Part shown: in pieces, positions 1 through 3,409 of the stretch
Layout: each line of letters begins with the position of its first letter
Numbering within the stretch: position 1 is the first letter of the stretch
Assembly (NCBI GenBank): GCA_020721485.1
Contig: DYMR01000045.1
Location: forward strand, 1 to 8,492
Length of the DNA: 8,492 bases
Reading direction: 5' to 3'
DNA from: Halothiobacillus neapolitanus
Lineage (GTDB): Bacteria > Pseudomonadota > Gammaproteobacteria > Halothiobacillales > Halothiobacillaceae
Made by a program: the position numbers and the translations under genes
The notes under the pieces: generated by a model
What the model was told of the DNA's origin: nothing
The model's database searches: none
Seen by the model: only the letters and a program-made list of their open reading frames with translations

Positions 1-625
1 CCCGCAGGGTTTCGGCGGTCGCCACGAACGGGGCATCAATTAATTCGCCGGGACTGTGGTCAATCAAATCGCTGACCGTGGCCGCCGTCATTTCTAAATG
101 GAATTGCAATCCCACGGCGCGGCCACCGGGCAGGATGAACCCTTGATTCACGCAGGCGGCGCTGGAACCCAAGGCTTCCGCGCCGTCGGGCAGGCTGAAG
201 GTTTCGCCATGCCAATGGAACACGCGGGTTTCCTCCGCCGCTTGAGGCCAGATGCGTTGCGCCGCCGCCTGCCACCGCAGCGGCCACCAGCCGATTTCCG
301 GCTGCGGGTTTTTGACCACCGATGCACCCGATTGCTCGGCAATGAGTTGCCCGCCCAGGCAGATGCCCAACATCGGCACACCCGCCGCCAGCGCCGCGCG
401 AATATAGGCTTTTTCGGTCGCCAGCCACGGCAATTGCGCGGTATCGTGCACGCTCATCGGCCCGCCCAGCACGATCAATAAATCCACCGTGCGCACCGGC
501 GGCGGCGGGATCGGTTCGGCAGAAAACTGCTCGACCGTGGTAATCACCGCCGATCGTTGTGCCAACCACGGCGCCAACGCACCCAAACCTTCGAACGATT
601 CGTGTTGAAATACCACCACATTCAT
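1..625 (-). other. GMP-synthase-like glutamine amidotransferase domain, possibly also translated separately
   Basis: This is the C-terminal half of the fusion, counted here from its own Met at 625. It has the class I (triad) amidotransferase layout. The oxyanion-loop region VLGGPMSV is at 52-59. The nucleophile Cys89 sits in GICLGGQ. A WHGE motif is at 138-141, and LQFHLE at 173-178 supplies His176 and Glu178. The FHWHGE segment and the WHGE spacing fit the stand-alone GMP-synthase-like family (the YfeJ type), which hydrolyses glutamine or processes gamma-glutamyl compounds; most members have no proven substrate. Those proteins are usually about 230-240 residues, so roughly 25-35 C-terminal residues should lie beyond the window. 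All three catalytic residues are present, so the domain looks active. Confidence 0.85.
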
Positions 626-1408
626 GGGGAGAGCCTCCTCGGGGTTGAACGGGGCAGCCGACGGGTCTGCCCAGCGGGGATAGACAAACAAATCAAACTG
701 CCCGGCCGGAATCAGCGCCGCTTCGTCCACACCGGGCACCGCGAAGGCCAGACTGAGCAACCGCCCGCCGACGGGCAGCTCTCGCCCGGCCTTGCGCCAC
801 ACGCGCAGCATCGGTTCTGGGGATAAAAAGGCAAATACGCGATCGAAATCCGACCAATCGGCCGACCAAAAATCGCCGTAGCGAATCGTGCAGTTGGGCA
901 GCCGACGGCAGCGCCAGCGGGCAATGAGCCACAGTACCGGCGCGCTTTCGATGCCAACGAATTGGCCCTCGGGCAGCGCCCGCGCGAGCCGCCACAACAG
1001 GCGCCCATCGCCACAGCCAATGTCCAGCAACCGCCGCGCGCCCTGACTCTGCATTTCGTCGATCAGCCGTTGCGCCACCAGTGCATCGGCGCGATACAGC
1101 GGAATGCGGGTAAAAATCGCGTTCCACTGCACGGCGAGCAAGACCAGCGCGACCATCAGCAGCAACCAAGGATTCAGACTGAGCGACAACACCCCGGCCA
1201 AGGGCAGAAACAGCAGCACGGGGCGCCACCACGCGGGCAAAAACCGCCAACCGACTCCCATGGCGCAGGCGCCGACGATCAATGCCAACACCCACAGCGG
1301 AATCGCCGGAGCACCGGCGCGTTGCGCCAGATACAGCCCGCCGACCCCCAACACGCCGCCCAACAGCAAGGCGATCAGCACGACGGCGAATTGCAGCAGG
1401 CGGGACAT
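1..1408 (-). CDS. Membrane-anchored SAM methyltransferase fused in frame to a class I glutamine amidotransferase (partial, C-terminus beyond left edge)
   Basis: I read every codon from the ATG at 1408 down to base 2 and found no stop, so the visible part is one frame of 469 codons. Residues 1-97 hold about four hydrophobic segments (roughly 5-27, 35-54, 63-78, 79-97), which suggests a membrane anchor. Residues 127-135 (LLDIGCGDG) are a class I methyltransferase motif I. Glu154 in VGIE is the likely acidic residue that binds the SAM ribose. Residues 188-200 (FDRVFAFLSPEPM) look like the motif IV region. The order IPLY, then DIGCGDG, then FLSPEPM recalls the FAM173-like lysine methyltransferases; this is resemblance from memory, not a search. 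Residues 262-469 form a GMP-synthase-like amidotransferase domain with Cys350, His437 and Glu439. The start is fixed: the motB stop TAA lies in the same frame five codons upstream, with no ATG between. The gap to motB is only 12 nt, which suggests co-transcription. The substrates of both halves are unknown. Confidence 0.82.
   Translation of the reverse strand, partial: MSRLLQFAVVLIALLLGGVLGVGGLYLAQRAGAPAIPLWVLALIVGACAMGVGWRFLPAWWRPVLLFLPLAGVLSLSLNPWLLLMVALVLLAVQWNAIFTRIPLYRADALVAQRLIDEMQSQGARRLLDIGCGDGRLLWRLARALPEGQFVGIESAPVLWLIARWRCRRLPNCTIRYGDFWSADWSDFDRVFAFLSPEPMLRVWRKAGRELPVGGRLLSLAFAVPGVDEAALIPAGQFDLFVYPRWADPSAAPFNPEEALPMNVVVFQHESFEGLGALAPWLAQRSAVITTVEQFSAEPIPPPPVRTVDLLIVLGGPMSVHDTAQLPWLATEKAYIRAALAAGVPMLGICLGGQLIAEQSGASVVKNPQPEIGWWPLRWQAAAQRIWPQAAEETRVFHWHGETFSLPDGAEALGSSAACVNQGFILPGGRAVGLQFHLEMTAATVSDLIDHSPGELIDAPFVATAETLR
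634..639 (-). promoter_or_regulatory. Internal AGGAGG ribosome-binding site before the amidotransferase domain
   Basis: The minus strand reads AGGAGG at 639-634, followed by 8 nt and then ATG at 625-623, which is nearly ideal for translation initiation. In the long frame the same bases encode Glu-Glu-Ala-Leu-Pro before Met262. The match could be a coincidence of coding sequence, or a relic or active start of a once separate amidotransferase gene. It is a stronger site than the one before the methyltransferase ATG at 1408. Confidence 0.5.
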
Positions 1409-1420
1409 GGGTTGCGCCGG

Positions 1421-2536
1421 TTAGGGCTGGGTGGCGGGCACGGGCGCCTTCAAATCACCCGGATTGGTGATGATGCCGGTGATGCCGTTGATGGTGGCAA
1501 TGGGCGCAGCGGGCGCAGCGGGCGGCGGCGCGGCGGCGGGCACAGCGGATTCTGTCGTCGCAGCCGGGGGCGGAATCGACCCGGCAGCCGCAGGCGCCGT
1601 GCTGCCTGAATCAGCGGGCGCGGCAGGCATGGCACCGCCGGTCGCGGGATCAAAATCCTGCGGATGCAGCACCCGTTCGGCGGCGCTGTCGTTCATCACA
1701 ATGATCGAAATGCGCCGGTTGCGCGGATCCGCCGGGTCTTGCGGAATCAGCGGCAGGGCGTCCGCCATGCCCACCACGCGCAGCAGTTTTTTCTCGTCAT
1801 AACCGTCCGTCACCAGCTCGCGCCGCGCGGCGTTGGCACGATCTGCCGAAAGCTCCCAGTTGGTGCGGTCTTGCCCTGGGAATGGAATGGAATCGGTGTG
1901 CCCGACAATGCTCAGCCGGTTGGGCAGCTTGTCGATGACCGGCGCCAATTTTTTCAAAATCTCCGCCGCATACGGCTCCAGTTTGCTGGAGCTGACCTTG
2001 AACATGGGGCGGTTGGCCTGATCGATGATTTGGATGCGCAGGCCGTCGCGCGTCATATCGAGCTTGATTTGGTCTTTGTAGGCCTTGAGCTGCGGATCGA
2101 CATTAATCAGCGATTCCAGCTCTTGTTTGAGGTTTTCGATGCGCTTTTTATCGGCTTCTTCGATTTTCTTGCGCGCTTCGGCCTCGGTCATTTTTTTCTG
2201 ATCGATTTCGATCTTGACCGGCGGCTCGCTGCCGTTTTTGACCTGCCCTTGCTGCTTGGTGAGGTCATCGCCGCCGCCATTAATCAAACTCACCGACATC
2301 CCCGCGCTGGGGCCGCCTTCGAGCGTGACTTTGACCGGATTGCTGAAGTAATTGGCGATGCCTTTGAGCTTGACCTCGCCCACCGAGCCAAGCAGCCACA
2401 TGAGCAGGAAGAACGCCATCATCGCGGTCACAAAATCGGCATACGCGATTTTCCAAGCACCGCCATGATGGCCGCCGTGCCCTTTGTTGACCTTTTTGAT
2501 GATGATCGGCTTAGCCTGATCCGGTTGTTCCGCCAT
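1421..2536 (-). CDS. motB: Flagellar motor stator protein MotB
   Basis: MotB pairs with MotA to form the proton channel of the flagellar stator and anchors it to peptidoglycan. The 371-residue product has the typical family start: a basic, His/Gly-rich N-terminus, then WKIAYADF and one membrane helix (about 31-52). Asp34 in AYAD corresponds to the proton-carrying Asp32 of E. coli. A charged segment (about 113-145) is probably the helical periplasmic linker. An OmpA-like peptidoglycan-binding domain spans about 160-283, with GHTDSIPF at 212-219, LSADRANAAR at 229-238 and NRRISIIV at 273-280. Beyond it lies an Ala/Pro-rich tail of about 75 residues (about 297-371); E. coli MotB, at 308 residues, has only a short one. 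The gene starts 21 nt after motA, with only a weak GGAA-like site ahead, so translation is probably coupled to motA. Identification is secure; MotB rather than PomB is inferred from the MotA partner. Confidence 0.96.
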   Translation of the reverse strand: MAEQPDQAKPIIIKKVNKGHGGHHGGAWKIAYADFVTAMMAFFLLMWLLGSVGEVKLKGIANYFSNPVKVTLEGGPSAGMSVSLINGGGDDLTKQQGQVKNGSEPPVKIEIDQKKMTEAEARKKIEEADKKRIENLKQELESLINVDPQLKAYKDQIKLDMTRDGLRIQIIDQANRPMFKVSSSKLEPYAAEILKKLAPVIDKLPNRLSIVGHTDSIPFPGQDRTNWELSADRANAARRELVTDGYDEKKLLRVVGMADALPLIPQDPADPRNRRISIIVMNDSAAERVLHPQDFDPATGGAMPAAPADSGSTAPAAAGSIPPPAATTESAVPAAAPPPAAPAAPIATINGITGIITNPGDLKAPVPATQP

Positions 2537-2557
2537 GATGCGCTGCGTCGTTCCGGG

Positions 2558-3409
2558 TTATTTTTTCTTCAAAAACTCTTCGAGTTCTTGAAAGCTGGGG
2601 CGATCGGCCGAGAACAGCACTTTGCGGCCAAATTCGGCGGCCACTTGCGGCGGATAGCCATTCATGAACGCGATCATCGCCGCTTTGATGCTTTGGTAAT
2701 ACTTGGTCGAATCGTTGACTTTGTGCTCGATGTTGGCCGAAATTGGCGCCACCAAACCATACGAAACCAAAATACCGAGGAAGGTACCAACGAGCGCGGC
2801 CGCGATCAGCCCGCCCAGTACCGCCGGCGGCTCCGCCACGGATTCCATGGTGTGCACCACGCCCAGCACCGCCGCCACGATACCGAAGGCCGGCAAGCCA
2901 TCGGCGATTTTGGCGATATTGGTCGCGGGCAACGAGGCTTCTTGGTGGTGGGTTTCAATGTCGATGTCCATGAGGTTGTCGATCTGATGAACATCCAGCG
3001 TGCTCGACACCATCAAGCGCAGATAATCGGTAATAAAGTCCACCGCATGGTGATCGCCCATCACCTTGGGCGCTTCCTTGAACAGCGCGCTGGAATGCGG
3101 GTCTTCAATGTCCTCTTCAATCGCCATCAAGCCCTCTTTACGGGCGCGGGTGAAGATGTGATACAGCAGCGCGAGCGTTTCCATGTACAACGCTTTGTTG
3201 TATTTCGACCCCTTCATCGCAGTTTTGAAACCGCCGAGCGTCGCCTTCATGGTTTTGCCGGAATTACCCGCCACGAAGGCCGCAATCGCGGCACCCAAAA
3301 TGATGAGGTATTCAACCGGCTGCACCAGAACGATCAAATGACCGCCGGCGACGGCAAACCCGCCGAGCACCGCGCCAAACAGCAACACCCAACCAATGAT
3401 CACATTCAT
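2558..3409 (-). CDS. motA: Flagellar motor stator protein MotA
   Basis: MotA is the multi-pass inner-membrane stator subunit. With MotB it conducts protons and pushes on FliG to turn the flagellum. The product has 283 residues, close to the 295 of E. coli MotA and longer than sodium-type PomA. Hydrophobic segments are at about 3-20, 32-49, 172-190 and 198-220, with a cytoplasmic loop between the second and third. Functional residues known from E. coli occur at the same numbers: Arg90 and Glu98 in the FliG-contacting loop, Pro173 in GLPAFG, and Pro222 in VAPIS. AAGG-type ribosome-binding sequence lies at 3419-3424, 9 nt before the ATG. The C-terminus is rich in Lys and Glu and ends in KKK. The gene follows pepN by 47 nt and leads into motB. 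No other flagellar or chemotaxis gene is in the window. Confidence 0.97.
   Translation of the reverse strand: MNVIIGWVLLFGAVLGGFAVAGGHLIVLVQPVEYLIILGAAIAAFVAGNSGKTMKATLGGFKTAMKGSKYNKALYMETLALLYHIFTRARKEGLMAIEEDIEDPHSSALFKEAPKVMGDHHAVDFITDYLRLMVSSTLDVHQIDNLMDIDIETHHQEASLPATNIAKIADGLPAFGIVAAVLGVVHTMESVAEPPAVLGGLIAAALVGTFLGILVSYGLVAPISANIEHKVNDSTKYYQSIKAAMIAFMNGYPPQVAAEFGRKVLFSADRPSFQELEEFLKKK

Follow-up and report, generated by a model that had tools for sequence, protein, structure and literature searches.

A methyltransferase-amidotransferase gene fusion in Halothiobacillus: likely origin by chromosome rearrangement and a candidate internal start

The fused frame and its recurrence

The window, a stretch of 8,492 nucleotides from Halothiobacillus neapolitanus, starts at base 1 of contig G000:C116 of a MAG that is 81% complete and comprises 1.8 Mb on 217 contigs. 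Its minus strand carries a reading frame that starts with ATG, contains no stop for 469 codons and exits the window at the contig end (Table 1), directly behind two genes which we take from their sequences to be motA and motB. The C-terminus absent from the window is provided by P0001, a database protein of the window protein's cluster that differs from it by F56V in an alignment read by eye; the absent 31 residues were looked for on contig C148 and were not found there.

Table 1. Features of the fused frame and of the genes upstream of it in the window
Feature	Position	Strand	Remark
Fused reading frame	2..1408	-	469 codons visible, cut by the contig end; P0001 has 500 aa
N-terminal hydrophobic anchor, residues 1-101	1106..1408	-	AlphaFold model and hydrophobicity read from the sequence
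SAM-dependent methyltransferase (MT) domain, residues 102-243, DIGCGDG at 129	680..1105	-	
Linker, residues 244-261	626..679	-	equal length in three fusions, diverged sequence, low model confidence
AGGAGG, Shine-Dalgarno-like, within the coding frame	634..639	-	eight bases ahead of the internal ATG
Internal ATG (Met262)	623..625	-	corresponds to the first codon of the relatives' free amidotransferase genes
Class-I glutamine amidotransferase (GATase) half	2..625	-	
GATase motif codons	359..361 (Cys350), 98..100 (His437), 92..94 (Glu439)	-	
motB-like gene	1421..2536	-	immediately upstream, 12 bases from the fusion ATG; frame from ORF list
motA-like gene	2558..3409	-	frame from ORF list

A Pfam scan assigns residues 128-206 of the fused frame to Methyltransf_25 and residues 305-442 to GATase, the GATase half scoring 72.9 bits against PF00117 (cut-off 22.8). 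The motifs that the original prediction had called intact are all at the residues it gave, with Cys350, His437 and Glu439 sitting in LGICLGG and QFHLEMT; Cys, His and Glu form the catalytic triad of class-I amidotransferases. An AlphaFold model (mean pLDDT 91, pTM 0.62) has four helices in the anchor, at residues 3-30, 38-53, 61-77 and 80-101, all hydrophobic, so that the N-terminal half is predicted to be of membrane type, in agreement with the earlier description. Model confidence falls below 50 at residues 248-257, and the linker is predicted to be disordered and the halves to have no fixed mutual arrangement.

When 5.8 billion database proteins were searched with the whole frame, 7995 candidates were scored; of the 84 matches listed, three proteins, P0001, P0002 and P0003, have both halves. 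The search thus yielded two further fusions with the same domain order: P0002, from Halothiobacillus sp. DCM-1, is encoded on a 2.09 Mb contig and is 79% identical to the window protein (MT half 83%, GATase half 78%), and P0003 is 78% identical (81% and 76%); both are 494 aa long. Searching with the MT half, limited to lengths of about 275-875 aa (7999 candidates), listed five matches, comprising the three fusions, one lone 282-aa methyltransferase and one weak match. A search with the GATase half retained 141 of 7992 candidates, and the 120 listed include the three fusions and two proteins of reverse domain order, P0171 and P0177. The open fused frame, as claimed from the sequence with both of its Pfam domains, is therefore real and common to three proteins of different genomes. 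An assembly or sequencing artefact might be suspected in a MAG of this fragmentation and completeness with the gene at a contig end, but the same fusion in P0002 and P0003 from other assemblies refutes it unless those records share the error, and we regard it as extremely improbable; for the same reason the stop or frameshift between positions 625 and 700 that could have undone the fusion is not expected. Among ten same-genus genomes the window's own is the single one with the fusion; seven of the other nine have MT and GATase apart, G003 has MT only and G004 GATase only. Titles and abstract openings of the papers listed yielded nothing on a methyltransferase-amidotransferase fusion of this kind, and no work on Halothiobacillus with these genes was found.

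Relatives and gene neighbourhoods of the two halves

The nearest relative of the GATase half among NCBIfam models is PRK07053.1, at 180 bits and below its cut-off of 250, and its fold matches include DnfC (8khs), TM1158 (1o1y) and plant gamma-glutamyl peptidase 1. It shares the Cys-His-Glu motif residues with PRK07053-type proteins and with these three enzymes, but differs from them all by the N-terminal membrane methyltransferase. The original prediction knew of no described enzyme with this pairing; the pairing is indeed rare but not unique, as P0171 (Streptomyces brevispora) and P0177 likewise carry a SAM methyltransferase on the same chain as a related class-I GATase. In these two proteins, unlike in the window, the GATase comes first, and their methyltransferase is best matched by Methyltransf_11; judged by domain order they would represent a separate fusion. 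Other partners of the GATase family among the 120 matches listed include GNAT acetyltransferases (10), LipB-type ligases (2), HIT (2), AhpC-TSA_2 (2), asparaginase (1) and some more, counted from precomputed Pfam labels of which six were rescanned (P0096, P0097, P0103, P0113, P0119 and P0120); in the rescan of P0096, AhpC-TSA_2 fell just under the cut-off.

The MT half has its nearest sequence relative in the archaeal lysine methyltransferase aKMT (PDB 5fa8, 5fad, 5jwj), a weak match (profile E 6.5e-9), and by fold aKMT ties with 5bxy, which is labelled an RNA methyltransferase. The window protein differs from aKMT and the FAM173 enzymes by its GATase tail. Ergothioneine biosynthesis has a pair, EgtD and EgtC, made up of an EgtD-type Methyltransf_33 and a class-II amidotransferase. 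We rejected an EgtD/EgtC-like pair here, as the seven Pfam families that matched include neither domain and the amidotransferase is of class I. ATPSc-KMT (FAM173B) and ANT-KMT (FAM173A) are distant animal relatives of aKMT (PMC9006661, PMC5828452); FAM173 enzymes have one putative transmembrane domain, whereas the modelled window MT has four hydrophobic helices.

The MT gene belongs to the neighbourhood of the flagellar stator genes. Across 26 family relatives, with strong matches (E <= 1e-20) counted, MT and MotA are both present in 20, MotA alone in one (G019), MT alone in none and neither in five, an association (p = 9e-5) to be read with the caveat that G026, one of the five with neither, is only 64% complete and that neighbouring genes are lost together. 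MotA of G019 is matched as two separate pieces, of which the first contains an in-frame TGA (G019:C92:328-1166). Of the 20 family relatives with MT, 19 have it adjoining motB; in the remaining one, G013, MT and motA share a contig at a distance of about 10 kb. In a class sample of 276 genomes, 16 carry MT (E <= 1e-12), 13 of them from other gammaproteobacterial families. Five of these 13 (G033, G040, G135, G180 and G240) have motB on the MT strand no more than about 1.5 kb away, and in the other eight it was not found near MT, although two of these (G122 and G301) end too close to the gene to judge; in G084, from another sample, MT is present and motB is absent from the stretch examined. Loci with MT after motB are found at window positions 680-3409 and in L114, L116, L118, L119, L121, L123, L125, L127, L131, L132, L152, L154, L155, L157-L164, L183, L187 and L188. 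Titles and abstract openings of the papers listed contained nothing on stator methylation.

Reciprocal junctions and the internal start

The unfused arrangement is preserved in the same genus. All eight same-genus relatives with MT have the order PepN-MotA-MotB-MT followed by RRM-DUF815, and in eight same-genus relatives GATase lies behind dnaB-alr, directly in six and with one ORF between in two (G005 and G007). In the genome of the window, contig C116 reads PepN-MotA-MotB-MT followed by GATase, and contig C111 reads dnaB-alr followed by RRM-DUF815 and then by thioredoxin-like and glycosyltransferase genes (names on C111 assigned by match to G009). The breakpoints on C116 and C111 are reciprocal with respect to the alr-GATase and MT-RRM junctions of the genus, the alr-RRM junction being observed in one MAG only, and a chromosome rearrangement is the most likely cause of the joining of MT to GATase. 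Each half of the fusions forms one clade in a tree of 14 rows (MT support 99/99, GATase 100/99), and one event is therefore enough; the MT tree carries a warning of long branches meeting, which affects where the fusion clade sits.

From a pre-rearrangement order of alr-GATase and MT-RRM, the simplest reading would have a segment that runs from GATase to MT excised, joined at its ends and reinserted elsewhere, although two inversions could yield the same arrangement. In G009 the MT and GATase loci share one orientation and are separated by about 36 kb, but in G007 they are far apart on one contig, and the ancestral distance and layout are uncertain for that reason. The alr-RRM junction contains a dispersed repeat of about 45 bp (L138:7225-7284, G000:C111), and the junction stretch has 63 matches listed in its own genome, itself included, several of them at contig ends. 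The repeat was considered as a recombination site and rejected, since the joint at 600-740 bears no likeness to it above shuffles.

Free MTs of the genus extend 10 to 25 residues beyond the position that corresponds to Tyr243, and the first residue of free GATases corresponds to Met262, suggesting that the end of MT was joined to the leader of GATase with loss of the MT stop codon and retention of the GATase ribosome-binding site. The AGGAGG ahead of the internal ATG, a feature that the original prediction did not mention, is uncommon: on both strands of three stretches of the genome (C116, C111 and C148) AGGAGG lies 4-10 nt upstream of four out of 1109 ATGs, the internal one among them, and six further gene starts in the window all lack it in the same test. 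The internal Met is retained in all three fusions, the linkers of which are equal in length with pairwise identities of 8, 10 and 8 of 20 residues. P0002 and P0003 also keep Glu258 with Glu/Gly neighbours, the codons of which could spell a similar site. Each ribosome reading MT would have to continue into GATase, and ribosomes landing at the AGGAGG and internal ATG would initiate free GATase. With the AGGAGG and the ancestral first Met both kept, one gene is predicted to give both proteins, and the likely products, as read from the sequence, are a membrane-bound two-domain protein and a free amidotransferase.

Independent or joint function

With presence taken as a strong match (E <= 1e-20, our own threshold), MT and GATase are both found in eight of the 26 family relatives (G001-G026), MT alone in 12, GATase alone in three and neither in three, giving no co-occurrence (Fisher p = 1); elsewhere in the genus the two sit in unrelated gene rows. 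The original prediction had proposed that the GATase could supply ammonia to the methyltransferase's substrate or free that substrate of a gamma-glutamyl group. The intact motif sets of both halves, the gamma-glutamyl peptidase among the GATase fold matches and the existence of reverse-order GATase-methyltransferase proteins are all in keeping with such a bifunctional enzyme, but MT accompanies MotA rather than GATase, the gene rows of the two differ, the model (pTM 0.62) joins them by a disordered linker without a fixed arrangement, other proteins link the same GATase family to many different partners, and the methyltransferase of P0171 and P0177 belongs by best match to another Pfam family. 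Catalytic coupling therefore appears very unlikely. The disordered linker, the lack of co-occurrence with GATase and the tracking of MotA by MT favour instead a stable product of rearrangement. The second suggestion made from the sequence, a lineage accident of two neighbouring genes, fits better than coupling as far as the accident is concerned, but the genes were not neighbours beforehand and were most likely brought together by the rearrangement.

The likeliest mechanism, which we hold with moderate confidence, is that one gene gives two products, the membrane fusion and a free GATase from the internal start, without catalytic coupling. The halves would probably function independently, the GATase keeping its old role in the hydrolysis of glutamine or of a gamma-glutamyl compound and the MT methylating a protein at the membrane, plausibly a component of the flagellar stator. 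Both the open frame and the precise length of the linker have persisted while the halves diverged to about 76-83% identity, which could reflect selection for the fused form. One form of such selection would be the tethering of GATase at the membrane near its product or substrate, with the fused form working and the internal start weak or unused. That three proteins share one linker length and an open frame speaks for tethering, as do the four hydrophobic helices of the N-terminal half; relatives, however, encode the same GATase without any anchor, and the AGGAGG test ranks the internal site above all others in the window, leaving tethering rather unlikely. Because the frame is kept, this reading and that of a bifunctional enzyme retain the limited probability given here. 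We also considered, as an unlikely extension, that the MT half corresponds in bacteria to ATPSc-KMT, that is, a membrane-anchored lysine methyltransferase of the flagellar stator encoded in the motA-motB operon, which in one Halothiobacillus lineage has acquired an amidotransferase tail and, with the internal start, two products.

The locus offers a gene fusion traceable to rearrangement: the two reciprocal junctions can both be seen, the genus also contains unfused relatives, and an old ribosome-binding site is retained inside the coding frame. The case cautions that fusion alone is no proof of joint function. The stator-operon methyltransferase is the more interesting lead and the one most worth following; if it does methylate the stator, methylation of the flagellar motor would be directly testable by mass spectrometry.
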